A DNA stretch of 64,000 nt from an uncultured Psychroserpens sp. (GTDB lineage: Bacteria; Bacteroidota; Bacteroidia; Flavobacteriales; Flavobacteriaceae). Shown here one piece after another: positions 28,015 through 61,752 of the stretch. The stretch spans positions 186,001 through 250,000 of the forward strand of contig NZ_CANMVN010000004.1 in the NCBI RefSeq assembly GCF_947501425.1, given 5' to 3'. Under the pieces are notes generated by a model. It saw only the letters and a list, made by a program, of their open reading frames with translations, searched no databases and was not told the DNA's origin. Numbering within the stretch: the stretch's first letter is position 1; every line of letters starts with the position of its first letter. A program made the position numbers and the translations under genes.

Positions 28015-28069
28015 TACTTTTTATTTTAAAGATACTAAAAAAACATCTTTAACACATAACTTTAACGTT

Positions 28070-28165
28070 ATCACTCGCGTTAGTGATTGGAATGAAAATC
28101 CTTTTTTTGAGAAAAAAGATTGAAATGAAAAGCACGACCTCAACTTCGCGAGACGCTTCGTTGAG
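28070..28165. repeat. Structured intergenic element of three hairpins
   Basis: Hairpin A: ATCACT / AGTGAT with a 6-base loop (28070-28087). Hairpin B: AATC-(C)-TTTTTT / AAAAAA-GATT with TGAG loop (28097-28121), flanked by the direct repeat AATGAAAA at 28091 and 28124. Hairpin C: CTCAAC / GTTGAG with an internal TTC/TTC loop and inner GCG/CGC stem (28139-28165), notably GC-rich for this genome. It begins downstream of obgE. It resembles dispersed repeat elements of flavobacterial genomes, but only one copy is in the window, so that is a guess. Confidence 0.5.
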
Positions 28166-48636: not shown

Positions 48637-49494
48637 ATGAAAAATCTGAAGTTTTATATCATCATCCCAGCACACAACGAAGAGGAATCTATTGCTCAAA
48701 CTTTAGAGTCGTTGATTACTCAAACACTACCTGCAAAACACATTGTGGTGGTCAATGATAACTCGACAGATCTTACAGAACAAATTGTTAAAACTTTAGC
48801 AAAAGAACATTCCAATATATCTTTAGTTAATGTGACCTCATCAGATGAGCATTTACCTGGCTCTAAAATCATCAATGCATTCTATAAAGGATATGAGACC
48901 TTAGATGAGGCTTATGACGTGATTTGTAAATTTGATGCAGACCTGATTTTTCCTAAACATTATTTAGAACGCTTGGCATCGCATTTCAGCAAAAATAAGC
49001 AACTAGGCATGGCTGCTGGCTTTTGTTACGTTGAGAAAAACAAAGAGTGGGTTTTAGAAAATCTTACACGAAAAGATCACATTCGCGGTGCACTAAAAGC
49101 ATATCGAAAACAATGCTTTTTAGATATTGGCAAGCTCAAACCATCTATGGGTTGGGATACTGTTGACGAACTCTTGGCTTCGTATTACAATTGGGATTTA
49201 TTAACTGATGCATCCTTGCATGTCAAGCACCTTAAACCTACAGGCATAAGTTACAATAAAGCCTCCAAATATCTTCAAGGAGAAGCGATGTATAAAATGC
49301 GTTACGGTTTTATTATCACGCTAATTTCGGCTTTAAAACTAGCTTACAAAAAGAAAAGCATAGTTCTTTTTAAAGATTATATGTTTGGTTATTTTAGAGG
49401 AAAGCAACAAAGCCTAGAACGCCTTGTCAGTAAAGAGCAAGGCCAATTCATAAGACGACTCCGTTGGAAAGGTATGTTAGGCAAATTAAAATAG
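48637..49494 (+). CDS. Family 2 glycosyltransferase
   Basis: 285 residues, GT-A fold. FYIIIPAHNEEESIAQTLESLITQTLPAKHIVVVNDNSTDLTEQIV (nucleotide-binding start and acidic DNST), then VICKFDADLIFPKHYLERL (the DxD motif as DAD), and the acceptor region MGWDTVDELLASYYNW. No transmembrane helix is evident, so a cytoplasmic or peripherally bound enzyme, likely adding a sugar to an envelope glycan or lipid. Ends 1 base before the convergent nuclease gene. Confidence 0.9.
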   Translation: MKNLKFYIIIPAHNEEESIAQTLESLITQTLPAKHIVVVNDNSTDLTEQIVKTLAKEHSNISLVNVTSSDEHLPGSKIINAFYKGYETLDEAYDVICKFDADLIFPKHYLERLASHFSKNKQLGMAAGFCYVEKNKEWVLENLTRKDHIRGALKAYRKQCFLDIGKLKPSMGWDTVDELLASYYNWDLLTDASLHVKHLKPTGISYNKASKYLQGEAMYKMRYGFIITLISALKLAYKKKSIVLFKDYMFGYFRGKQQSLERLVSKEQGQFIRRLRWKGMLGKLK

Positions 49495-49495
49495 T

Positions 49496-50305
49496 TTAAT
49501 TAAAACTCCAACCTTTATAGCTACTAGAGGATTCTAACGTATTTTCAATGCTATCCTCTAATTCTGAAAAGAAGTCAATACCTGTTAATTCCTCGATTTC
49601 ATCAACTGAAACAACAAATTCATAAAGCGGTCGTTTAGAATTTTTGTGAGGCATTAAAAATGCAATCATTTTAGTCTTTCCTATATTATTATCAATCAAT
49701 ACTTTATAAAACTGATTAGGCACACTCACCTTCTCATCACCTATGGTTTTCATGGTTCCATTTAATACACCTCCTGTAACAACAAAAACGCCATCATATT
49801 TCCTTGCCCAATAGCGTACTTTTTGCTCAAGAGTATTCCAAATTCCTGAATTGAAGTCGTGTTTTTGCGGACTTATATTACTGGTTAAAAAGGTTTCATC
49901 ATGTGCCTCTTGACTATACCTCTTATCACCTGCAGGACAGAGGTGTCCTCGATCATAACCCGATTGCTTATAATTTCTCCAATGTGCAGCTTTAGTTTTT
50001 ACTGCCTTATCAATTTCAAAATAAGGACGCTTAAAATTGGTGTTTGCAAGATGTGATTTCTTTAATTCATAAGCCACCCATTCGGCTTGTTCGTGTGGTT
50101 CGCTGTAGGATAAAGAATAGCCTTCGTGATGTATAATTTGTCCCGTTGTACTTGTTGGTAAAAAGTATTCGTTGGTATCGTCTTTTACGGTTTGTCCTTG
50201 CTTTATAATCTCGGTTGATTCTTGTTCTTTTAAAACATATTCATAACCAAAAACACATAGTATAATAATTATTGCTATGGCAGTGGAAATTGTTTTTTTA
50301 TTCAT
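49496..50305 (-). CDS. Membrane-anchored DNA/RNA non-specific endonuclease (NucA/EndoG type)
   Basis: 269 residues. An N-terminal hydrophobic segment (5-20) acts as signal anchor; the nuclease domain begins ~50. The beta-beta-alpha metal motif is DRGH at 118-121 with H121 as general base, and the metal-ligand Asn is N152 in FNSGIWNTLE; TSNISPQKHDFNSGIWNTLEQKVR and VFVVTGGVL are family marks. Lies outside the cytoplasm by prediction, for nutrient or defence DNA degradation. Directly follows the LytS-type kinase gene (2-base gap), so it is expressed with it. Confidence 0.92.
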   Translation of the reverse strand: MNKKTISTAIAIIIILCVFGYEYVLKEQESTEIIKQGQTVKDDTNEYFLPTSTTGQIIHHEGYSLSYSEPHEQAEWVAYELKKSHLANTNFKRPYFEIDKAVKTKAAHWRNYKQSGYDRGHLCPAGDKRYSQEAHDETFLTSNISPQKHDFNSGIWNTLEQKVRYWARKYDGVFVVTGGVLNGTMKTIGDEKVSVPNQFYKVLIDNNIGKTKMIAFLMPHKNSKRPLYEFVVSVDEIEELTGIDFFSELEDSIENTLESSSSYKGWSFN

Positions 50306-50307
50306 TT

Positions 50308-52200
50308 TTAAACATCTAATAAGTATGGCAAATATAATTTAACCTGCGTTCCCTGATCTTTATTTTTAATTAAATATCTGGCATCGACTTTAAACTTATT
50401 TTTTAAAATTTCTAAACGTTCTTTGATAATATCACCTGAAACCGATTTTTGCTTCTTAGTCTCTTTTAAACCTTTTGAATAGCCTACGCCATTATCATCA
50501 ATTTCACATAAGAGCAAACCTTTTTCATTTCTAGAAATCTTTATATCTACTCTACCTCTGTTATGATTAGGTTTCAAACCGTGTAAGATAGCATTCTCAA
50601 CAAAAGGCTGTATAAGCATTGGAGGAATAATAAATTCTTCCTGATCTATTGATTGATCTATATTAAAACTAAAGTCGAAATCCTTAGAAAATTGGGATTG
50701 TAATTCCAGATAGCTATTTAAGGTTGTTAGCTCATCTTCTAAGCTTACAAACTCCTCTCTAGAATTAGTTAATACCAATCTAAATAAATTTGATAATTTA
50801 TTAATGTAAGGTATGGCATCATCAGATTTCTTATTAACCAGTGCACTTACTGTATTCATGGCATTACCTATAAAATGTGGATTCATTTGAGAACGTAACA
50901 AGCGTTGTTCTAAATTTTCTTTTTCATATTTATTTTTAAGTTTTCGTTGTTTAAAAAACAAGACACCCAAAAGAAGAGCCAGTAAAAACAAACCTGCTAA
51001 TCCAAAACCAATTGTTCTTTGTTGTTTTATAATTATCCCTTGTTGTTTTTTGCTTTCCTCTAATTGTGCAATAGAGGCATCTTTTTCTTTTGTTTGGTAA
51101 GAGGTTTCCAAGTTTTGAAGTTCCTGCTGTTGTTGCTCTTTATTATATCTTTCATAAATGAGAGAGGATTCTTTTATTAGCGCTTTGTACTCAGAAGCAT
51201 TGCCTTTTTTTTGATACGCAATACCTAGTGTTTCAATAACATATGTTGCTAATTCATAATCATCTCTATTAATTTTTTCTTGACCTTTTATAGCACTTAA
51301 TAGTTCTTTTAAATCTTCAATAGCCTTGTTCGTTTTCCCTTCAAAAACTTCAACATAACATTTTAAAAAATCATAATTAAATTGTGCTCCAGGAAAATCG
51401 CCTACACCATTAGCTTTAATAGCTTCAATGGCCTGTTTAAAATATTTAGAGGCTTGGAGATACTTGTCATCTTGATGGTATGTAAATGCCAAATAAGCGT
51501 ACAATGTTGGGATATTACTTTTATAATCTGAATTGATAGATTTATCTAATCCTTTATTGTAATACTTTCTTGCTTCTTCAACATTGTTCATATCCTTATA
51601 TAGTGCTCCAATTTTAGTTAAAGTAACAACAGCTGGTCTACTAATATTCATATAGACTGAGTCTTTTTCTACTTCAAGAAAATATTTTAGGGCTAATTCT
51701 TTATTTCCCATTTGAATATGTGCATCTGCAATACCTGCTGTGACATATGATATATACTTATAAGGGTAAATCTTAGACAGATCAATTGCTGCCTGATAAT
51801 TTATGATGGAATTCTTATAATCCTTTGAAGCGGCTTTTAAACTTCTGGCTTTATTAATATAAACACCAACCAAATAATGCTCGTCCACTGGACGAGGAAC
51901 CTCTAAGTCATTATACGTTTTAATTGCCTTATCAGCATAAAAGAATACGGAGTCATACTTATTTTCTCTAGAGGCAAGTGAAGCCAAGCCTGCATAATAA
52001 CGTGTCCATCCTTTAAGTTTTTTATCAGACTCTAATATTTTTTTATAGTCTGACAATTTAATTCTTAGATTATTTTTATTAATAGAGTCAACATATTTCT
52101 GAGTATATACTTTATTTGCATCATATGTAAGTATGTCTTCATTTTGAGAATAACCAACATAATTAATTAAAAAAGTTATAAAAAAAAGAAGTATTTTCAT
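50308..52200 (-). CDS. TPR sensor histidine kinase of the LytS/YehU family
   Basis: 630 residues. Signal peptide (1-18), periplasmic TPR array (~30-360), coiled coil, one transmembrane helix (397-416), then a His_kinase domain with the phosphoacceptor H442 in RSQMNPHFIGNAMN and HATPase N-box IPPMLIQPFVENAILHGLKPN and G-box (DDNGVGYSKG). This is the cytoplasmic LytS-type kinase coupled to a sensory TPR domain, typical of Bacteroidota. The LytTR response regulator lies divergently 22 bases away and is the obvious partner. Ligand unknown. Confidence 0.93.
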   Translation of the reverse strand: MKILLFFITFLINYVGYSQNEDILTYDANKVYTQKYVDSINKNNLRIKLSDYKKILESDKKLKGWTRYYAGLASLASRENKYDSVFFYADKAIKTYNDLEVPRPVDEHYLVGVYINKARSLKAASKDYKNSIINYQAAIDLSKIYPYKYISYVTAGIADAHIQMGNKELALKYFLEVEKDSVYMNISRPAVVTLTKIGALYKDMNNVEEARKYYNKGLDKSINSDYKSNIPTLYAYLAFTYHQDDKYLQASKYFKQAIEAIKANGVGDFPGAQFNYDFLKCYVEVFEGKTNKAIEDLKELLSAIKGQEKINRDDYELATYVIETLGIAYQKKGNASEYKALIKESSLIYERYNKEQQQQELQNLETSYQTKEKDASIAQLEESKKQQGIIIKQQRTIGFGLAGLFLLALLLGVLFFKQRKLKNKYEKENLEQRLLRSQMNPHFIGNAMNTVSALVNKKSDDAIPYINKLSNLFRLVLTNSREEFVSLEDELTTLNSYLELQSQFSKDFDFSFNIDQSIDQEEFIIPPMLIQPFVENAILHGLKPNHNRGRVDIKISRNEKGLLLCEIDDNGVGYSKGLKETKKQKSVSGDIIKERLEILKNKFKVDARYLIKNKDQGTQVKLYLPYLLDV

Positions 52201-52222
52201 GTTTAAAATTAGCGGTTAATAA

Positions 52223-52978
52223 ATGATAAAGAGCAATTCTAAAATTAACACAATTATTATAGAAGACAATATTGAATCTCAAGAATATTTGACTTCTATT
52301 TTACAGAGTCAATTCAGTAATATAGATATTATTGGTTATGCTGATAATGTGATAGACTCCATATCAATTATTAATACTGAGAAACCTGAGTTGATTTTCA
52401 TGGATATTGAATTAATCGATGGTTACTCATTTGAGATTTTCAAACATCTGAAACATCATGATTTTGAAGTGATCTTTGTTACCGCCTTTGACAATTATAT
52501 GAGCAAAGCTATTGACCACTATGCGTTTAGTTATATCATTAAACCTTATGAAAAGGATAGAATGATTAAAGTTATTAATCGATATATCCATTTAAAAGAG
52601 CGCTTATTCTCAGAACATAAATTCCAACTACTTTCCAGTTTTCTGAGTTCTAAAAGTTCTCGTTTTCTTTTACATGTTGGAAATGAGCATGTATCAATTA
52701 ATATAAATGATATTATCAAATGTGAAGCTGAAGGAAACTACACTTATTTCTACCTCGCAGATCATAAAAAATACTTAGCGTCCAATTCACTCAAATATTA
52801 CGAAGAATTGTTAATCGATAAAGGCTTTTTTAAGGCACATCGATCAGTACTCATTAATATAGAGTATATCGCTTCCATATATAAAAAGGAAACCATCATA
52901 CTTACCAATAATGACAAAATAAATGTCTCTGTCAGAAACAAATCTAATCTTACTGATTTGATTAATCAATTATCATAG
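52223..52978 (+). CDS. LytTR-family response regulator
   Basis: 251 residues: receiver domain (1-125) with phosphoacceptor D61 in LIFMDIELIDGYSF, acidic pair E14-D15 (IIIEDN), T/S in VIFVTAF and K in IIKPYEK; LytTR DNA-binding domain (~150-251) with DIIKCEAEGNYTYFYLADHKKYLASNSLKYYEELL and FKAHRSVLINIEYI. LytTR proteins bind two direct repeats 21 bases apart. Such a pair lies right downstream at 53001-53030, before the next gene. Divergent partner kinase gene upstream. Confidence 0.95.
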   Translation: MIKSNSKINTIIIEDNIESQEYLTSILQSQFSNIDIIGYADNVIDSISIINTEKPELIFMDIELIDGYSFEIFKHLKHHDFEVIFVTAFDNYMSKAIDHYAFSYIIKPYEKDRMIKVINRYIHLKERLFSEHKFQLLSSFLSSKSSRFLLHVGNEHVSININDIIKCEAEGNYTYFYLADHKKYLASNSLKYYEELLIDKGFFKAHRSVLINIEYIASIYKKETIILTNNDKINVSVRNKSNLTDLINQLS

Positions 52979-53000
52979 TCATCTTAAAAAGTTATAAGAC

Positions 53001-53030
53001 AACGCTTATCATTAAAATCTTAACGCTCGT
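53001..53030 (+). promoter_or_regulatory. Predicted LytTR operator: two 9-bp direct repeats, 12-bp spacer
   Basis: AACGCTTAT at 53001-53009 and AACGCTCGT at 53022-53030 (identity continues into TCATT in both copies). Spacing of 21 bases between repeat starts equals the AgrA-type arrangement, and each repeat fits 8 of 9 positions of the published AgrA-type consensus (W M [CA] G T T N R K). The pair ends 26 bases before the promoter TTG at 53057, an activator position. Confidence 0.7.
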
Positions 53031-53056
53031 CATTTTGTTCTAGATTTTACAGGTTC

Positions 53057-53086
53057 TTGACACTACTTTTAAGTATAATACATTTG
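53057..53086 (+). promoter_or_regulatory. Canonical Bacteroidota promoter TTG-N19-TACATTTG
   Basis: -33 TTG at 53057-53059 and exact -7 box TACATTTG at 53079-53086 with a 19-base spacer. It drives the T9SS gene at 53163 with a leader of about 70 bases. The LytTR-type repeats lie just upstream. Confidence 0.72.
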
Positions 53087-53162
53087 AAAAATCTCTTTTT
53101 CATTGTCGTATTATCGCGGAAACCGAAAAGCGAATGAGTAGGCAATTAAAACTATTTCAACT

Positions 53163-55097
53163 ATGAAAAAATCTATTTTTTTAGTGCTATTAGCTTTTGT
53201 AATATTTACAAATTTTTCAATAGCTCAAGACCTTAAGCCAGAGAAAGAGTATCAAAACACAATTGATGCTATAGAGCAAACAATCGATTTTTATATTCAG
53301 CAGAATATTGATAAGAAAATTCCAATTGATTTTTCAAACGCAGCAAGAACCAGTTCTGAACTAAATGATGTTAAAAGTCGAAATTATTATATCAGATCTT
53401 TAAAGGAAGACTTTCTCCGCAAAGAATTCTTTGATAACAATCCTTCACTTAAAACTGCTTACAGAAAAGGAAAAAACGATGTGACACCTTGTACAGATGA
53501 TAATGATGATGGAACTTTTGAAAATGGCAATCCAGGAACATATAGTGCCACAAAAAATGGATCTCCAACTCCAATCGTAACTGAGTCACCATTTGTTGAT
53601 CCTCTTTCTCCTGTAGCCATTGTAAGTTCTGGAAATGACCCTATTCTATTTAGCCTTACAACAGGATTACAAGACGCCAACGCCATTACATTGTCAAGAA
53701 CAAATGGTTCTACTAAAGCAGTTAGAATCAATCAAAACAAACGCTTTTTTACTAATATGACAGACAATGCTGAAAACGATAAATTACTTAAGACTTTTGT
53801 TGCAGACGATAGATACATCACCTTAGATTATGCAGCAGTTTTAGAGAAATGGTCTCAACATTCAGTAGCTGAACACCCTTACTTTAAAGTAAATGTCTAC
53901 GTAGATGGAAGTCCGTTTGCTACAGACTCAGAAACGGTAAGAGCTTCTGACAGCGATTTAGAGTCTTTTGATGACTTTTTAGACCAAAACAATGTAAATG
54001 ACAGCTATGCTAATCTTACAAATAATTTGAATACAGACTTAAGATATTCAGGTCAATGGGAAACGATGACATTAGATATCGGCGAAGCTAATGTAGGTAA
54101 ATCTGTAGAGTTAAGATTAGAAGTAAGAGATTGTAGTCAAAGTGTTCATGCTGGTTATGTGTACATCGATAACATATCAAATTGTGGCGATGATGATCCA
54201 GATCCTTGTACTAACCCGTGTAATATAAATGCTGACATAGATATTAACAATGTTTCTGCCTGTGTAAGAGAATTTTCTGGCACAAATTTAATTGCTCCTC
54301 AATGCGAAGATATATATTCTTATACTTGGACTATCAAGAGAAACGGAGTTACCATTACAACGAATACAAATAAGGATTTCACTTATGATTTCTCTAATGA
54401 TTCTGATGGATATTACATTGTCGAATTAAGAGTTACTTATGATGACGGAAGTGTTAAGATATGTCAGGATAAAGAGTCAGTAACTATTTATATCAACTGT
54501 CAACCAGACTGTAAACCTGCAAGTTGCCTAGATATAGTAGAAGTTGAAAACTGTGTTGATTATCAAGCCTGGATGAATTGTAATGATCCTAATATAGATT
54601 ATATTAATTGGTATTATACCATTAGTAGTACATATTACCATGTTTTTGCTGGACAATCATCAGGTAATGCTGCCGGACAACATGCGCAACCAATCTATTT
54701 ACCAAGCCCTCCTGCAGGAATCTCAAGCTGGGACAATTATAATTTATACGTATATGCCGAAATTGTATTTGAAAACGGAACCGTATGTGATGAAGTATAT
54801 ACCTACATTACTCTAGATTGTGATGATAATGGTGGTATTGGAGGTAATTTCCGTAATTCACAGAACGATTTAAAATTATATCCAAATCCGATTAAACCAA
54901 ATCAAGAATTACATTTTGATGGAATTGACAAAAATGACATTGAAAACATTGAAGTTTTAGATATCGTTGGAAATATTAAATTAAGACTAAAACCAACAAG
55001 CAATACACTTAATGTTAGAAATTTAACTTCTGGAATCTACTTTGTAAAGTTCTATACATCGAAAGGAATTGAACAAAAGAAGATTGTCGTAAAATAA
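53163..55097 (+). CDS. Secreted T9SS protein, predicted target of the LytTR system
   Basis: 644 residues. Signal peptide MKKSIFLVLLAFVIFTNFSIAQ; C-terminal type A sorting domain (LYPNPIKPNQELHFDG ... GIYFVKFYTSKG...KKIVVK). The central region has a carbohydrate-binding-like beta domain (~150-350: DDRYITLDYAAVLEKWSQHSVAEHPYFKVNVYVDGSPF, MTLDIGEANVGKSVELRLEVRDCSQSVHAGYVYIDNIS) and two Cys-rich PKD-like modules (~360-560). I see no catalytic motif. Promoter carries LytTR-type repeats. Probably an adhesin or binding protein on the cell surface (inference). Confidence 0.85.
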   Translation: MKKSIFLVLLAFVIFTNFSIAQDLKPEKEYQNTIDAIEQTIDFYIQQNIDKKIPIDFSNAARTSSELNDVKSRNYYIRSLKEDFLRKEFFDNNPSLKTAYRKGKNDVTPCTDDNDDGTFENGNPGTYSATKNGSPTPIVTESPFVDPLSPVAIVSSGNDPILFSLTTGLQDANAITLSRTNGSTKAVRINQNKRFFTNMTDNAENDKLLKTFVADDRYITLDYAAVLEKWSQHSVAEHPYFKVNVYVDGSPFATDSETVRASDSDLESFDDFLDQNNVNDSYANLTNNLNTDLRYSGQWETMTLDIGEANVGKSVELRLEVRDCSQSVHAGYVYIDNISNCGDDDPDPCTNPCNINADIDINNVSACVREFSGTNLIAPQCEDIYSYTWTIKRNGVTITTNTNKDFTYDFSNDSDGYYIVELRVTYDDGSVKICQDKESVTIYINCQPDCKPASCLDIVEVENCVDYQAWMNCNDPNIDYINWYYTISSTYYHVFAGQSSGNAAGQHAQPIYLPSPPAGISSWDNYNLYVYAEIVFENGTVCDEVYTYITLDCDDNGGIGGNFRNSQNDLKLYPNPIKPNQELHFDGIDKNDIENIEVLDIVGNIKLRLKPTSNTLNVRNLTSGIYFVKFYTSKGIEQKKIVVK

Positions 55098-55119
55098 TAT
55101 GTATTATCTATTATGTAAA

Positions 55120-55148
55120 TAAGCCTCTTAAATTAAGGGGCTTTTTTA
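55120..55148 (+). terminator. Terminator after the LytTR-controlled T9SS gene
   Basis: Stem AAGCCTCTTAA / TTAAGGGGCTT with T-run. It abuts the convergent anti-sigma gene, whose stop lies in its right T-rich arm. Confidence 0.8.
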
Positions 55149-55949
55149 TTCATCATTTAATTGGCTTAATAACTCTTCGGCTTTTTTATAGTTATAAAGC
55201 TTCTTAGAAACAACAGTATTCAAAACAACTTTAGAGTCGTCAAGGCGATCTTGTTTGAGATAGAGTAAGGCTTTATACCAATAGCCCATACTCCCATCAA
55301 TAGATGGGTTGTTAATTAAATTATCATAAGTTATCTCAGCTTTCTTAAACTGATTTAACTCCACCTGAGCTAATCCTGTATATAGATATAATGAAATATT
55401 AGAGCTTTCTGTACCTAGAACTGATTCAAAAATAGCCAGTGATTCTTTATAGTTTTTCTTTTCGAAAAGAATTTGGGCATTAACAAGTTGTTTCTCTATT
55501 TCATTTGCATTACTTCTGGTAGCAAACGATGGCAACTCACTTAAGCTTACATAATCATTATACAAGGCTTTACCAGAAACACTTTGATTAAAAAATAATT
55601 GAAACCCGAGGAACACAACAATAGAAGCTGCTGCCAGATAATAAAAAAACGATTTGTTCAATTTACGTGTAGTGTTATCTTTCTGCTTACTCACTTTATC
55701 AATTGTATGCTTTAGATCCTGCATCCCACCCTCATTCAACAAAAGTTTGTATTCTTCAACCTCTGGCGACTTTTCACTAACAAAACTCCACTCTTCATCA
55801 TTAAGCGTTTCAAAAAGTTCAGCTTCTAGCTTAAATTGCTTGCTAAAATCGGCATCAACTTTTAAACGCTCTAAAACCAATTCCATTTCAGTTTCAGATA
55901 GCGTACCTTTAAGATAATTATCTATTAGTATATAGTCCTTTTCAGTCAT
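55146..55949 (-). CDS. TPR anti-sigma factor candidate
   Basis: 267 residues. The cytoplasmic N-terminal ~100 residues (IDNYLKGTLSETEMELVLERLKVDADFSKQFKLEAELFETL) are a short helical domain like that of Bacteroidota anti-sigma proteins; one transmembrane helix at 102-120; a periplasmic part with three TPR-like repeats (KALYNDYVSLSELPSF, AQILFEKKNYKESLAIFESVL, LAQVELNQFKKAEITYDNLI). The gene overlaps the sigma gene by 4 bases (ATGA), so translation is coupled. It would sense the envelope state through TPRs and hold the sigma factor (inference). Confidence 0.78.
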   Translation of the reverse strand: MTEKDYILIDNYLKGTLSETEMELVLERLKVDADFSKQFKLEAELFETLNDEEWSFVSEKSPEVEEYKLLLNEGGMQDLKHTIDKVSKQKDNTTRKLNKSFFYYLAAASIVVFLGFQLFFNQSVSGKALYNDYVSLSELPSFATRSNANEIEKQLVNAQILFEKKNYKESLAIFESVLGTESSNISLYLYTGLAQVELNQFKKAEITYDNLINNPSIDGSMGYWYKALLYLKQDRLDDSKVVLNTVVSKKLYNYKKAEELLSQLNDE

Positions 55950-56509
55950 AACTTATTCAATAAGACAAAACGTTTGTCAGCTTGTACCAACTGCTTTAAT
56001 TTGTTTTTACACTTAAAGACACTTTGTCTGGCAACTGTTTCTGTATTGTAACCAATTTTATTTACAATATCTGCATATGATACTTTATTAAAATACAATT
56101 TTAATACCTGCTTACATTTGTCAGAGATCAGTTCTAAACACTCTTTGTATAATTCCCAGCGTTTTTGTTCTAAAACAGCCATAGCAATATCTGTGCTATC
56201 ATCCTTCAGTTCACCTAGTTCATATTTTGTTACCTTATTTTTTGATTTATTTAACTCTCGACGCCATAAATTTTTGCAAACGGTAAAAAAATAAGCTTCA
56301 AAACTAGAGTGCACAGTAAACCTTTCTTTCTTATATCTTACAGCCAATTGCAGTAAAGCTTTTTGAAAAATATCTTCAGCATCCAAACTTTGACCTTTAT
56401 TATTTACAACAAACCGAAGCACCTTAGGAAACATTTCTTTATAAATCTCAACAACAATAGACTCACTATTATTTATCAATCCATTCAGGTAATAATTAGG
56501 GTCTTTCAT
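55946..56509 (-). CDS. ECF-type RNA polymerase sigma factor
   Basis: 187 residues. Region 2: LRFVVNNKGQSLDAEDIFQKALLQLAVRYKKERFTVHSSFEAYFFTVCKNLWRRELNK; region 4: CLELISDKCKQVLKLYFNKVSYADIVNKIGYNTETVARQSVFKCKNKLKQLV. The linker is short. Translationally coupled with the TPR anti-sigma gene. Diverges from the lipoprotein-CHAT genes, sharing an 89-base promoter region. Confidence 0.92.
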   Translation of the reverse strand: MKDPNYYLNGLINNSESIVVEIYKEMFPKVLRFVVNNKGQSLDAEDIFQKALLQLAVRYKKERFTVHSSFEAYFFTVCKNLWRRELNKSKNKVTKYELGELKDDSTDIAMAVLEQKRWELYKECLELISDKCKQVLKLYFNKVSYADIVNKIGYNTETVARQSVFKCKNKLKQLVQADKRFVLLNKL

Positions 56510-56555
56510 CGGCTTTTTTTGGGTAGCTTAATAAAAAAGTCTTTTTTTTATAAAA

Positions 56556-56563
56556 CAAATATA
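56556..56563 (-). promoter_or_regulatory. Bacteroidota -7 box TATATTTG for the sigma/anti-sigma operon
   Basis: Exact TAnnTTTG match on the minus strand, 46 bases before the sigma ATG. A 7/8 match (TATATTTA) on the plus strand at 56564-56571 adjoins it, inside the perfect palindrome AAATATATATATTT (56557-56570): divergent back-to-back promoters. Confidence 0.45.
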
Positions 56564-56598
56564 TATATTTATAAGATAAAGATAAATCCCTATTAATT

Positions 56599-57264
56599 AT
56601 GAGAAAACTAAATTTTAAGGTGCTCGCTATATTAGCGATCATGCTATCAATGAGTTGTTCAGTTGACAATCTCGAACAAGATTATCAAAATGAAGCTCTT
56701 GAGAGAAAAATTGATGCAGACATCAATTCTGAAAAAGATCATAGTGAAAGATCAAGGAATAATTCTTCTCAAGATGCTACGAATTCTAGTAATCTAACAA
56801 TCGTAAATGAGATGCCTGCAGGTACTGAAACACAAATTCTGTATTTTAATATGAGTGAATTGGAATACGAATTGATTCAAAGTCCATTTCAAGCTGACCC
56901 AACAGTTCCATTTAATATTTATTTCAGGAATTTAATGTCGCTTCACTATACCATATATACTATTGAAGAGAGTACGATATGTGAAAATGTTGAAAGATGG
57001 GTAGTCAATAAGCAAGAATATGATCTCTATAAGGCACTACTTGATAGTACAGGTGCTTCAGTTTTTAATCCGAATCCGGATAATACTGGAGGAGGTCAAA
57101 CGAGTAATACAGGACCAGGATTAGGTGGTGTTGATGGTACTAAAGCAGGTCCTCCTGTAAATGGTGGTGGCAGTGACGATGATGATGACGATGAAGAGGA
57201 TGATCCTGATTTAGATCCAAAAGAGCATTTAGCACAATGCTTTCCTAATAATGTAAAATTATAA
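56599..57264 (+). CDS. Disordered lipoprotein next to the CHAT protease
   Basis: 221 residues; lipobox MSC at Cys20 followed by SVDNLEQDYQNE. A long charged, low-complexity region (ALERKIDADINSEKDHSERSRNNSSQDATNSSN) tethers a small central domain (~70-150: EMPAGTETQILYFNMSELEYELIQSPFQ ... VERWVVNKQEYDLYKALLDSTGASVFNP), then a Gly-rich and Asp/Glu-rich tail (GGSDDDDDDEEDDPDLDPKEH). Function unknown. Lying between the sigma operon and a CHAT protease, it is a candidate partner or substrate of the latter (inference). Confidence 0.72.
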   Translation: MRKLNFKVLAILAIMLSMSCSVDNLEQDYQNEALERKIDADINSEKDHSERSRNNSSQDATNSSNLTIVNEMPAGTETQILYFNMSELEYELIQSPFQADPTVPFNIYFRNLMSLHYTIYTIEESTICENVERWVVNKQEYDLYKALLDSTGASVFNPNPDNTGGGQTSNTGPGLGGVDGTKAGPPVNGGGSDDDDDDEEDDPDLDPKEHLAQCFPNNVKL

Positions 57265-57270
57265 CAATAC

Positions 57271-57307
57271 AAGAGAGGTAGCTATTGACTTAGCTATCTC
57301 TTTTTTC
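57271..57307 (+). terminator. Terminator-like hairpin before the CHAT gene
   Basis: Stem AAGAGAGGTAGCTA / TAGCTATCTCTT with a T-run, ending ~20 bases before the CHAT start. Either the CHAT gene has its own promoter or this is an attenuating site. Confidence 0.72.
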
Positions 57308-57327
57308 TACTATTTTGATTTTGAAAT

Positions 57328-60060
57328 TTGAAAAATATATTATCAATTGTATTGTTTATTTCAGGTCTTGTTTGTTTTTCACAGGAACCATCTAAACGAT
57401 ATCTAAATATCTTCGAGAATAACAATTTAAGTGCTCCGGAAAAAGAGAGACAATTTGACTCACTACTTAATGCACACAAAATAAATAATCAATTAGATTT
57501 TTTAATAGAAGACACTTTTGAAGTATTTAGATGGCTGTATAAAAAAAAGCCAAGAAACATAGAAAAGGCAATCGCTCTCAATAAAAGGAATTTGTTTTTA
57601 ATGGATTCCATCAACTATAAAAATGAGCCATTCTACAGAAGAAATGTTTATAGTTTGGGTTTTTATTATAGAAAAAACATCGACCTAGATAACGCCTTAA
57701 CGACTCTAAAACTATTGCTGCGTTATGACGAGCCAGACAAAACCGTCATGCAAGGTGTATTTAATATTGCAGAAATTTATTTTGACACAGGACAATACAC
57801 CCAATCTCTTAAATATTTCGAGTTAGGCAAATCCATTTCTAATCGATTAAAACACAATAACTTAATTGTAAGAAACGCTATAGGCATAGGACAATCTAAC
57901 AAACTAATTAATACGCCAAAAAGTTTAAAAAATGGAATTGCTGAACTTACCAAAACCATAGCTTTTGTAAATTCTGTGAATAATGATGATAATTTAGACA
58001 ATGATGTTGACTTAAAACATATGCACACCCTGTACAATCAATTAGGTAATCTTTACATTGATAGAGATGACTATGATTTTGAAAATGGAAAAGTAAATCT
58101 TGACCAAGCACTTATAATTGCTATTGAACTTGATAAAAGAACGCTACTGAGAAAAACATATAACGATATTGGCGTTTTGCACCTAAAAGATGAACGTAAA
58201 GAAGCTGAATCATACTTCAAAAAAGCACTAACTTACAAGCCTAGAGCTTTAATGAAATCGATCATTCATAGAAATTTAAGTATTCATTATTTCAACTTCA
58301 AACACCATGATAAGGCTTTAGCAGAAGTACAAACTGCCATATCTACTCTTGTTCATTTAGATACTTCTGACATAAAAAATCTACCTTCCAAGTCAGACTT
58401 AGTAAATTCAAAAGTTAAATTTCAATTGATTTCTGGCCTTATAGATAAAGCATTGATTTGGACTGAGCTCGCTGAAAAAACACCTGAAGACAAAACATAT
58501 ATCAATGAAGCCCTACGTACTTTTGAACTTGCCGATTTTCTTGTTGAAAAAGCCAGATTAGAAAGTCAAGAATTTAAATCTAAATTATTTTGGAGAAAGA
58601 CCGCTACCGAAATTTATACAGGTGCTACAAAAGTCTGTTTTTTATCTGATAATCCTGAAAAAGCATTTTATTTTATAGAAAAGAACAAAGCTTTATTATT
58701 ACTGGAAGATGTGTCTCTCAAGATGTCTAGAAACACGTCTGAAATTCCTGATGATATTATCCAACAAGAATCAAAACTTAAAACTGAAATTGACAGATTA
58801 CAAAGTTTGCCTGTTACAAAAAACAAAGACTCTATTCAACGTTTAACCCTTTTAGCTAAGGATGATTACAACGAATACATCAATAGCTTAAACCCTAAGT
58901 TTAGATTTTTCTTTAAAACCAAAATACCTGCTAAAATCATTGACCTCAAATCATTTAAATCTGAATTTTTATCTGATAGCAATGTTTTTATTGAATATAT
59001 TTTAAATGAAGAAGACGGTTACGGAATAGTCATCTCAAACGAGACAACCAAACTGTTTGAAATCAAAAATTGTGAAGAATTAAAGGAAAACACTAAGTCC
59101 TACAGAACGCTTTTAGAGCAACCTTATTTAGATAACCAATCCATAAAAGATTATAATACTGTTGCGCATACCATTTATCAAACCTTATTTCCTGATGACA
59201 TTAAACCGTTGATCAAAGGCAAGAAGCTTACAATATCAGCAGATTATTACTTACAAAACATTCCATTTGAAGCACTCCAAACATCAACTGAAGGAAAGAG
59301 TTACCTTATTTATGATCATGAGATCAGCTATGCGTATTCTTTGTCGTTTCTAAATGAAAATGCAAAAATAGAACGTACAAACACTAAAAATCTAGTTGGC
59401 TTTGCTCCTATCAAATTCTCTTCAGGATTAAGCACACTGGCAAATACAGAACAAGAGCTAAACCTAATTGATGATGTATTTCCTTCAAAGATGTATTTTA
59501 ATGAAAATGCTACAAAAGAACGGTTTTTTAGTAATAGTAAAAATGCAAGAATTCTCCATATAGCATCTCATGCAGATGCTAATGATAGTATTAGTCCGTG
59601 GATTGCCTTTTACAATTCTAAAGTCGATTTGAATGAATTGTATGATTTTAACAGCACACCAGATTTGGTCGTTTTAAGTGCTTGCAACACCTCTTTAGGA
59701 GAATTAAATAAAGGTGAAGGTGTGATGAGTTTATCCAGAGGTTTTTTTAATACAGGATCGCATAGTGTGTTGCCTACATTATGGGAAGTAAACGATAAAA
59801 CATCTGTTGAATTATTACATACCTTTTATAAGAATATCGAATTAGGTCAAAATAAGTCATTAGCACTACATAATGCTAAACTTGACTATCTTGAAACTAG
59901 TGCGCCTAATCAATCGTCACCTTATCATTGGGCGTCATTTATTTTAATAGGTGATGCAGGAGAGATCGCTATTGATAATGGCTGGCCAATAATTTATAAA
60001 TACGCATTGGTTGGTATTCTCATTGTAGTTATGATATTGATGGTTAGAAGAAAAAAATAA
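57328..60060 (+). CDS. Envelope-anchored TPR-CHAT protease
   Basis: 910 residues from a TTG start; an in-frame stop two codons upstream excludes earlier starts, and the start gives a signal peptide (MKNILSIVLFISGLVCFSQ). Residues ~20-420 are TPRs (ALTTLKLLLRYDEP, FNIAEIYFDTGQYTQSLKYFELGKSI, LGNLYIDRDDYDFENGKVNL, KKALTYKPRALMKSII). A helical linker leads to a CHAT (caspase-like) domain, ~570-880, with the His-Cys dyad H748 (ILHIASHADAND) and C786 (VVLSACNTSLGELNKGEG). A C-terminal helix (~884-905: IIYKYALVGILIVVMILMV) plus basic tail anchors it, so the protease faces the periplasm. CHAT proteases cut partner proteins on a signal. Confidence 0.92.
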   Translation: MKNILSIVLFISGLVCFSQEPSKRYLNIFENNNLSAPEKERQFDSLLNAHKINNQLDFLIEDTFEVFRWLYKKKPRNIEKAIALNKRNLFLMDSINYKNEPFYRRNVYSLGFYYRKNIDLDNALTTLKLLLRYDEPDKTVMQGVFNIAEIYFDTGQYTQSLKYFELGKSISNRLKHNNLIVRNAIGIGQSNKLINTPKSLKNGIAELTKTIAFVNSVNNDDNLDNDVDLKHMHTLYNQLGNLYIDRDDYDFENGKVNLDQALIIAIELDKRTLLRKTYNDIGVLHLKDERKEAESYFKKALTYKPRALMKSIIHRNLSIHYFNFKHHDKALAEVQTAISTLVHLDTSDIKNLPSKSDLVNSKVKFQLISGLIDKALIWTELAEKTPEDKTYINEALRTFELADFLVEKARLESQEFKSKLFWRKTATEIYTGATKVCFLSDNPEKAFYFIEKNKALLLLEDVSLKMSRNTSEIPDDIIQQESKLKTEIDRLQSLPVTKNKDSIQRLTLLAKDDYNEYINSLNPKFRFFFKTKIPAKIIDLKSFKSEFLSDSNVFIEYILNEEDGYGIVISNETTKLFEIKNCEELKENTKSYRTLLEQPYLDNQSIKDYNTVAHTIYQTLFPDDIKPLIKGKKLTISADYYLQNIPFEALQTSTEGKSYLIYDHEISYAYSLSFLNENAKIERTNTKNLVGFAPIKFSSGLSTLANTEQELNLIDDVFPSKMYFNENATKERFFSNSKNARILHIASHADANDSISPWIAFYNSKVDLNELYDFNSTPDLVVLSACNTSLGELNKGEGVMSLSRGFFNTGSHSVLPTLWEVNDKTSVELLHTFYKNIELGQNKSLALHNAKLDYLETSAPNQSSPYHWASFILIGDAGEIAIDNGWPIIYKYALVGILIVVMILMVRRKK

Positions 60061-60078
60061 AATCTTAATTAGAAACAA

Positions 60079-61752
60079 TCAATCCATCACAAACTCCAAA
60101 GGCTGACCTGTAGAACCATTTGGAAAACTAATTCCTAAGAGAGCAGAGATTGTAGGTGCTATATCCGGAATGACTGTTTTTTGATACGTTTCGCCATGCT
60201 GTATCCCTTTTCCGAAGAATAATAAAGGCACATGTGTATCGTAGTTTAATCCACTGCCATGGGTAGAACCCGTTCTGCTATAAGAGATATATGCGACATC
60301 GTTCACCAGGATCACATCTCCTGATCGCTTTTGATTAAATCCATTTTGTAATAAGGCTTCAATACCAGTCACAAACTGTGTCGAATTCATAGCTGTAGCA
60401 GTGTAAGTTTTAGCTACATGATCATAACTAATCTGTTCATTAGCAATAGCTTCTCGTACATCATTGAGATTCAAGCCCATTGATTTTATTTTTTCCCGAT
60501 CTAAAAAAATCTGGTTATTACTAATATCTTCAATGATCTCATTGGTTCCGTAAGCATCAGTTAAAAACTTCTGAAATTTGGCCTTTCTTTCATTATTGTC
60601 AATATAACCAGCAGGAATGTTAACCGAATTTAGATAGGCAGGCACATCAACAGCTCCATGATCGGCTGTAAGAAAAACGGTGTATGCTCCTACTCCGACA
60701 TTGGCATCCAAATAGTTAAATAAGCGTTCCAGGTCTTTATCTAGTCTAATGTATGTATCTTCTACTTCTTTAGAATTAACTCCAAAATTATGACCTACAT
60801 AATCAGTACTAGAAAAACTTACTGTTAGTACATCTGTAATAGCATCTTTACCTAATTCTTCTCCTTTTATGGCAGCCATAGCGAAATCGGTAGTCAAACT
60901 ATTCCCATATGGTGTGGCTTTCAAGATATCAAATCCGCCATTGTCTGCTTTTAATGCTGCAAGATCATAAGGAAATGTGGCTTTTTCTTTTCCTGTAAAT
61001 CCACGTTCAAAATTATTATCATCACTACCGCTTTCTGTGTAGGTCGAAATATCATACATCGTGTCCCATTCTTTTAAATAGGATGCTGCAGTTTCCGAAG
61101 CATTGAAATCACTCACCCATTTTGGTAAAGTGTTCATGTAAAAAGTACTTGAGATCCATAGTCCTTCATCACGTCCGTGAAACCAATACGCAGCATTAGC
61201 TGTGTGACCTGCTGGTAAAATTGCACCTCTGTCTTTTATAGCTATTCCTATAGTTTTACCTCTCATTTGGGTAAATAATCTGTTTTCATCGGCAAAGCTT
61301 GTAGTTAACATTCTATGTGGTGACATTTGTCCGGCATTACTTTGTGTTCCAACAGATTGCACCGAATTATCACCTGCGCAATACACCATTTCTTTTGAGA
61401 CTTTGTCATACCAATTATTACTTATTACACCATGGTATTTTGGTGTCGTTCCTGTAAACACTGAAGCATGACCTGGACCTGTATACGTTGGTACATAATT
61501 AAAGTGATTGTTCTTGCAATTAAAACCTTCATTGATCATACGTTTAAATCCACCATCTCCAAATTTGTTATAGAATCGGGTTAGGTAATCGTAGCGCATT
61601 TGATCGACAACAATGCCAATCACTAGTTTCGGACTAGAAGATATTTCACTTTGATCGAGAACTTCATCAATAGAAGTTACAACTTCCCTTTGGGCAAAAC
61701 TGACAGTAATGCAACACAGAAACAATATTGAAAACAAAATACGGTTCATCAT
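60079..61752 (-). CDS. PafA-type alkaline phosphatase family protein
   Basis: 557 residues; signal peptide (1-20). Alkaline-phosphatase superfamily phosphomonoesterase. Metal ligand D50 in IGIVVDQMRYDYL; nucleophile T91 in YVPTYTGPGHASVFTG; N113 in SNNWYD; and K173/R175 in IKDRGAILPAGH, the Lys/Arg pair that defines PafA-type monoesterases rather than diesterases. DHGAVDVP (second metal site) is present. Periplasmic phosphate scavenging is likely. Two Met codons in a row start the gene; the first is used. Faces away from the MlaE gene. Confidence 0.92.
   Translation of the reverse strand: MMNRILFSILFLCCITVSFAQREVVTSIDEVLDQSEISSSPKLVIGIVVDQMRYDYLTRFYNKFGDGGFKRMINEGFNCKNNHFNYVPTYTGPGHASVFTGTTPKYHGVISNNWYDKVSKEMVYCAGDNSVQSVGTQSNAGQMSPHRMLTTSFADENRLFTQMRGKTIGIAIKDRGAILPAGHTANAAYWFHGRDEGLWISSTFYMNTLPKWVSDFNASETAASYLKEWDTMYDISTYTESGSDDNNFERGFTGKEKATFPYDLAALKADNGGFDILKATPYGNSLTTDFAMAAIKGEELGKDAITDVLTVSFSSTDYVGHNFGVNSKEVEDTYIRLDKDLERLFNYLDANVGVGAYTVFLTADHGAVDVPAYLNSVNIPAGYIDNNERKAKFQKFLTDAYGTNEIIEDISNNQIFLDREKIKSMGLNLNDVREAIANEQISYDHVAKTYTATAMNSTQFVTGIEALLQNGFNQKRSGDVILVNDVAYISYSRTGSTHGSGLNYDTHVPLLFFGKGIQHGETYQKTVIPDIAPTISALLGISFPNGSTGQPLEFVMD

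Follow-up and report, generated by a model that had tools for sequence, protein, structure and literature searches.

In BtsS/BtsR and YpdA/YpdB, a His_kinase (PF06580) protein is partnered with a LytTR response regulator, and the same partnership was found in the window, the whole 64-kb stretch of DNA that was analysed. The operators of AgrA, in the consulted part of PMC4227749, are centred at about -60, and the same part describes the DNA-contact motif of LytTR regulators as FhRhHRS-type. For the LytTR Regulatory Systems (LRS), the consulted part of PMC6193735 gives 10 bp as the commonest distance from the repeats to the -35 element and contains a Staphylococcus carnosus operator, ACCGCTTGT-12-ACCGCTTAT, which resembles the operator of the window. 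The -7 box of Bacteroidota is given as TANNTTTG in the consulted parts of PMC6847099 and PMC9723704, the latter assigning it to positions -12 to -5. In our study, comparison of related genomes suggested, with a probability that we put at roughly 0.8, that a LytTR regulator of the window acts via two adjacent direct repeats on a neighbouring gene for a type IX secretion system (T9SS) protein. The best reading is that the regulator would activate this putatively type IX-secreted protein, whose C-terminal part is common to zincin proteases in relatives.

The sensor kinase gene (50308..52200, minus strand) was found to encode TPR repeats and a His_kinase domain (Pfam PF06580, 8.1e-19), following an N-terminus that was signal-peptide-like by eye. 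The gene of the LytTR response regulator (52223..52978, plus strand) is divergent from it, with an intergenic distance of 22 bases. The regulator matched Pfam LytTR (2.8e-17) and Response_reg (2.3e-13) above the gathering scores (PF04397, 63.2 bits; PF00072, 50.7 bits), so both a receiver and a LytTR domain are present. The assignments of the regulator, the kinase and the T9SS gene in an earlier sequence-only reading of the window were upheld by Pfam and NCBIfam. The best NCBIfam match of the regulator was BtsR, at 94.7 bits and below the cut-off of 246. Among the best 60 of 68 chains of solved structures, 59 corresponded to the receiver region of the regulator and a single one, 3d6w, to its LytTR region. 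The DNA-contact motif of the window regulator was FFKAHRS, which is FhRhHRS-type with K for R (alignment A1); HRS was present in six of the nine aligned regulators and NRS or NRF in the other three. A scan of the genome contigs based on the regulator returned a single locus, which was irrelevant.

The gap between the regulator and the T9SS gene contained a distal repeat, AACGCTTAT(CATT), at 53001..53013 and a proximal repeat, AACGCTCGT(CATT), at 53022..53034, both on the plus strand, with 9-base cores at 53001-53009 and 53022-53030, respectively. Direct reading confirmed AACGCTTAT and AACGCTCGT with the 12-base spacer and 21-base period reported earlier, and the similarity was found to reach 13 bases, of which 11 are identical. 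The regulator gene and the site had been described as touching, which is slightly off, since 22 bases lie between the last base of the regulator gene and the start of the first repeat. The repeats had been recognised as a 9-12-9 arrangement with both arms agreeing with the LytTR consensus at 8 of 9 positions, and an arrangement with at least this agreement arose in 274 of 5000 dinucleotide shuffles of the 184-base gap (about 5%). A self-match of 11 of 13 at exactly 21 bases arose in 17 of the 5000 shuffles, and 309 had one when all periods between 15 and 30 were allowed. Taken alone, the repeats are weak, borderline evidence against chance, and the case must therefore rest on conservation.

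A degenerate operator pattern, WACGYTYRT-N12-WACGYTYRT, was drawn partly from the window site. It matched once in the 64-kb window with at most two mismatches (mean 0.36 by chance), and in its exact form it had a single match in the 3.7-Mb window genome, at this gap. The only copy in the window with at most two mismatches is downstream of the regulator, in a scan that a differing motif at the regulator's own promoter would escape.

Twelve regulator loci, the window included, were compared. Ten came from 397 genomes of the family (E up to 1e-45), and two were added, G010 and G444, each labelled by its genome. Draws from individual genera yielded only G010 for the window's genus, G444 for the genus of G200, and no new loci for the genera of G192 and G123. 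Another draw from the family, this time around G200 (298 genomes), gave no new match and apparently consisted of genomes that had been searched before. The regulators nearest to that of the window were found in G200, G192 and G444 (59-60% identical) and in G123a (53%), from an alignment that took in nine of the 12 loci and left out G140, G396 and G223. A divergent kinase-regulator pair was present in all four closest loci, the kinases being 44-50% identical.

A 9-12-9 pair adjoining the regulator or kinase gene was found at six of the 12 loci and at four of the five closest, counting the window in both. It adjoined the regulator in the window, G200, G444, G123a and G123b, the last being the second regulator of the G123 genome. 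Three repeat copies were present in G123b and, with a 21-base period, in G200. In G010 the pair, with two mismatches, adjoined the kinase gene instead and stood ahead of a gene that is lipoprotein-like. The site of G444 fits the pattern exactly, with no mismatches, and as this locus was first met after the pattern had been written, it is the cleanest test. The sites of the window, G200, G123 and G010 were known when the pattern was drawn, so their shuffle counts favour it. In G192, which has a regulator 60% identical to that of the window and a T9SS gene, the adjacent pair was degenerate, with four mismatches, a value that 214 of 2000 shuffles reached and that does not exceed chance. The distant regulator loci G363, G146, G140, G396 and G223 (36-40% identical) showed no adjacent site; for the last three this comes from a locus-wide scan, whose sole close match (G396) was inside another gene. 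A control set of 33 loci with other LytTR regulators was scanned as well, made up of 28 further matches of the regulator search and the five distant relatives. The best mismatch count was 1 in G396, 2 in one locus and 3 to 5 in 31 loci; the matches with one and two mismatches both fall inside coding sequence.

The repeats had been expected to be conserved where the regulator and the T9SS gene occur together, and this was so in G200 and G444 and failed in G192, with its degenerate pair. Two findings support the view that the repeats behave like a LytTR operator: in other genomes, too, the pair adjoins the genes of related regulators or kinases, and in G200 an exact match precedes an unlinked T9SS gene whose C-terminal part is similar. 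A functionless chance match would agree with the yield of the shuffled gaps and with the absence of a clear pair in G192; however, the recurrence and the fixed spacing in other genomes argue against it, and we regard such a coincidence as very improbable.

The six loci with a pair were aligned at the start of the proximal repeat, from which offsets were counted. A box similar to TANNTTTG was found at +42 in five of the six (window and G444, 5/6; G200, G123a and G123b, 6/6) and at +41 in G010 (5/6). The summed box score at +42 was 30/36, compared with a mean of 12 and a standard deviation of 3.9 over offsets 12-79, and was reached by none of 20000 independent circular shifts; the offset had first been spotted by eye, initially in four loci (G200, G123a, G123b and the window) and next in G444, before all offsets were tested. 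The predicted -7 box of the window is TACTTTTA (53064..53071, plus strand), which matches TANNTTTG at 5 of 6 positions with its offset kept across loci, and we consider it likely that this is the box used. With the box at -12 to -5, transcription is predicted to start near 53076 and the operator centre falls near -60; about 10 bases then separate the repeat from the -35 region. The centre thus agrees with that of AgrA operators, and the 10 bases with the distance preferred in the LRS. No clear -33 box was visible before the 53064 box, which would be expected if an activator takes its place.

The sequence-only reading had placed a canonical promoter, TTG-N19-TACATTTG, at 53057..53086 (plus strand). 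Its two elements, TTG at 53057 and TACATTTG at 53079-53086, do exist as described. However, TACATTTG lies at +57, 15 bases beyond TACTTTTA, and a box at +57 was found in the window only, whereas the conserved box is that at +42. As the main promoter, 53057-53086 is therefore disfavoured, its offset showing no conservation; it is possibly a second promoter that would be independent of the operator. The operator could still be correct with TTG as the -33 element (53057) and TACATTTG as the -7 element (53079), which would put its centre near -75. TACATTTG is a perfect 6/6 match and TTGACA a good upstream element, but the other five loci score just 1 or 2 of 6 at +57, and -75 misfits the geometry of both AgrA and the LRS. 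We hold this arrangement to be unlikely; it differs from the best explanation in the promoter only, so that the odds of the two overlap.

The half-site with at most two mismatches was not specific (520 matches in the window genome, 313 for the reversed pattern), nor was the operator alone with at most one mismatch in five genomes (17 matches, 10 reversed, six of the latter in G192). The exact operator was found once in each of these five genomes. The window genome and G123 have it directly at the regulator, G200 has it ahead of an unlinked T9SS gene, G192 in an intergenic position 328 bases before a lipoprotein-like gene, and G010 inside coding sequence. When the operator was combined with the box at its fixed offset, written TANNTTTR with a final R that lets the window and G444 forms fit, the 397 family genomes gave 12 matches with at most one mismatch, compared with five for the reversed control. 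Four of the 12 were beside the regulator (window, G200, G123a and G123b). Five were intergenic, upstream of other genes: two sites in G200, one before an unlinked M12B-zincin T9SS protein and the other before an open frame that spans at least 454 aa, has a start resembling a signal peptide by eye and matched nothing in Pfam; one each in G192 and G430, before genes that are lipoprotein-like by eye; and one in G064, before a small gene followed by a protein that is TPR-like by eye. The remaining three were inside coding sequence (G185 once, G178 twice) and were taken as chance.

The window genome contained 13 sequences matching the regulator with E up to 0.001, some possibly via the receiver domain only, and from so many matches kinase-LytTR pairs would appear to be common in these bacteria. 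Another LytTR regulator, or several, of the genome could accordingly use the site, and a three-copy site of G192 that lies far from its regulator agrees with such use. But the modules of operator and box without mismatches in the 397 genomes occurred only in the window and G123a, both adjoining this regulator, and the control loci of other LytTR regulators offered, apart from the two matches in coding sequence, nothing better than three mismatches. Control by a different regulator therefore seems rather improbable, and the adjacent regulator is preferred.

Two of the sites merit separate description. The operator and box match of G064 (L092) has an extra partial repeat upstream, seen by eye, and stands before a 154-aa gene; the protein that follows starts like a TPR sensor kinase, and the locus is possibly another LytTR circuit. 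In G200, the module on contig C12 (L098) has a divergent tRNA gene on one side and, on the other, a large open frame, which starts 208 bases after the first base of the site.

The T9SS-type protein encoded at 53163..55097 (plus strand) has 644 aa and contained a C-terminal type A sorting domain (TIGR04183, 6.7e-12, 45.2 bits with a cut-off of 23; PF18962, 9.4e-11). Its start was signal-peptide-like by eye, and type IX secretion of the protein is predicted. Its last 295 residues (aa 350-644, 54210..55094, plus strand) can be aligned with the regulator neighbours of G200 and G192, and also with the product of the unlinked gene on G200 contig C10 (BLASTP, 28-38% identity; alignment A2), and the G444 neighbour aligns only to residues 466-641. 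The N-terminal parts differ. HExxHxxGxxH proteases were found in G200 and G192, the G200 neighbour having a weak Peptidase_M43 match below the cut-off; the unlinked G200 gene contained an M12B reprolysin (zincin) part; and the HExxHxxGxxH motif was absent from the window protein and from the G444 neighbour. In G123a and G010, the adjacent gene was lipoprotein-like by eye instead of T9SS type. Homologs of the window protein (E up to 1e-15) were found in three of the 397 genomes, all with the regulator, among the matches listed; at most three candidates per genome were scored in this search and at most six in the regulator search, so that copies with weaker similarity could have escaped detection. 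The AlphaFold model of the protein was poor, with a mean pLDDT of 50 and residues 16-348 under 50.

The region after the T9SS gene (55146-60060) looks like a second signalling unit. An ECF sigma factor gene (55946-56509, minus strand) overlaps a TPR-containing gene (55146-55949, minus strand), for which an anti-sigma role is a guess, followed by a lipoprotein-like gene (56599-57264) and a gene encoding a TPR-CHAT protein (57328-60060). PADLOC gave no match for five neighbours. A slot between glycosyltransferase and phosphatase genes (window 48637-61752; L061, L083, L084) holds the present system in the window, whereas in G140, G396 and G223 it is occupied by another regulator of LytTR type with 36-37% identity.

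The leader of the T9SS gene was found to contain a DUF805b RNA (RF02914; 53113..53144, plus strand), detected by the Rfam covariance model at 38.2 bits (gathering score 35.6) and absent from the earlier reading. Pfam gave no DUF805 match in the T9SS gene itself. In G444, DUF805b was present at the same place above the Rfam gathering threshold, and in G192 a close copy with one mismatch to the pattern of this RNA was present below it. The distance from the end of GAGTAGG to the start codon was 20 bases in the window, 20 in G444 and 19 in G192. No DUF805b match was found in G200 and G123. G192 and G010 also have similar elements, again scoring below the Rfam threshold, ahead of other genes of secreted type, and the 300 bases upstream of these contained no operator (best 6 and 5 mismatches). 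Folding of the leader RNA was no better than that of shuffles (z -0.86 and 0.20), so the DUF805b assignment comes from the covariance model only. A search of the literature on DUF805b, in which most subscription journals were outside the scope, found no paper. Elsewhere in the window, a Flavo-1 RNA (RF01705) was found at 28068-28143, with 53.2 bits.

Alternatively, the site might repress, or transcription of the T9SS gene might come mainly by read-through from the regulator gene, with the DUF805b leader as its control. In favour, no terminator was found in 52900-53300, and Rfam classes DUF805b as cis-regulatory. However, a site upstream of a core promoter that has no clear -33 box suits activation, and the operator was also found upstream of unlinked genes in G200. 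Repression or read-through is therefore improbable in our view, and activation by the adjacent regulator is retained.

The proposed activation would proceed as follows. A signal received by the kinase would lead to a phosphorylated regulator, and a regulator dimer, as judged from LytTR biology, would bind the two 9-base half-sites, which would lie on the same face of the DNA helix, separated by two turns. Bound near -60, the dimer would help RNA polymerase at the sigma-A-type promoter with the -7 box at 53064-53071, a geometry that is based on comparison across loci. The transcript would carry the DUF805b leader and encode the T9SS-type surface protein. In relatives, the same cassette is found before secreted zincin proteases or lipoproteins (the latter label given by eye), which suggests that the switch is a small module for surface proteins and is portable. 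We tentatively propose, at a little short of even odds, that Flavobacteria-type genomes contain a portable two-layer cassette, in which a divergent TPR-kinase/LytTR pair, an operator 42 bases before the -7 box and sometimes a DUF805b leader at a fixed distance from the start codon would drive re-assorted T9SS proteins. These would have one C-terminal part in common, and their N-terminal passengers would be interchangeable (M43-like zincin, M12B zincin or a domain of unknown kind).

If the portable cassette is real, it would, as far as our searches reach, define a LytTR operator code in Bacteroidota for the first time and be the first context to link DUF805b with a signalled gene. Among the matches listed in our literature search, which left most subscription journals outside, no title defined a LytTR operator in Bacteroidota. 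The conserved half-site and the fixed distance between operator and promoter form a concrete code for target scans, and this code offers a means of studying how a sensor pair may select the surface protease or adhesin to be produced. The operator above the DUF805b leader offers a defined genetic setting for that RNA.

Compared with the AgrA operators at P2/P3 of Staphylococcus aureus (consulted part of PMC4227749), the window likewise has two direct repeats, with the centre at about -60 if the 53064 box is used, and a promoter that would be suboptimal without its activator. It differs in having a Bacteroidota-type -7 box instead of -35 and -10 elements, a regulator that adjoins its target, and a target of T9SS type. 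With HdrRM/BrsRM and their relatives among the LRS, as presented in the consulted part of PMC6193735, the 9-12-9 direct repeats are held in common, and some half-sites are similar (ACCGCTTAT). However, the LRS regulator has a membrane inhibitor, whereas the window has a kinase and a regulator with a receiver domain; with at most two mismatches allowed, the operator had just the one copy in the window. Membership of the LRS was rejected on account of the His_kinase partner and the receiver domain of the regulator. Compared with BtsS/BtsR and YpdA/YpdB, the window has a TPR input behind a signal-peptide-like start, divergent genes and a T9SS-type target. As for the DUF805b RNA (RF02914), the window copy leads a T9SS gene under a putative LytTR operator. 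The reading of the site as a LytTR operator of known kind, now a comparative one, holds, and the predicted operator is combined here with the promoter geometry of Bacteroidota.
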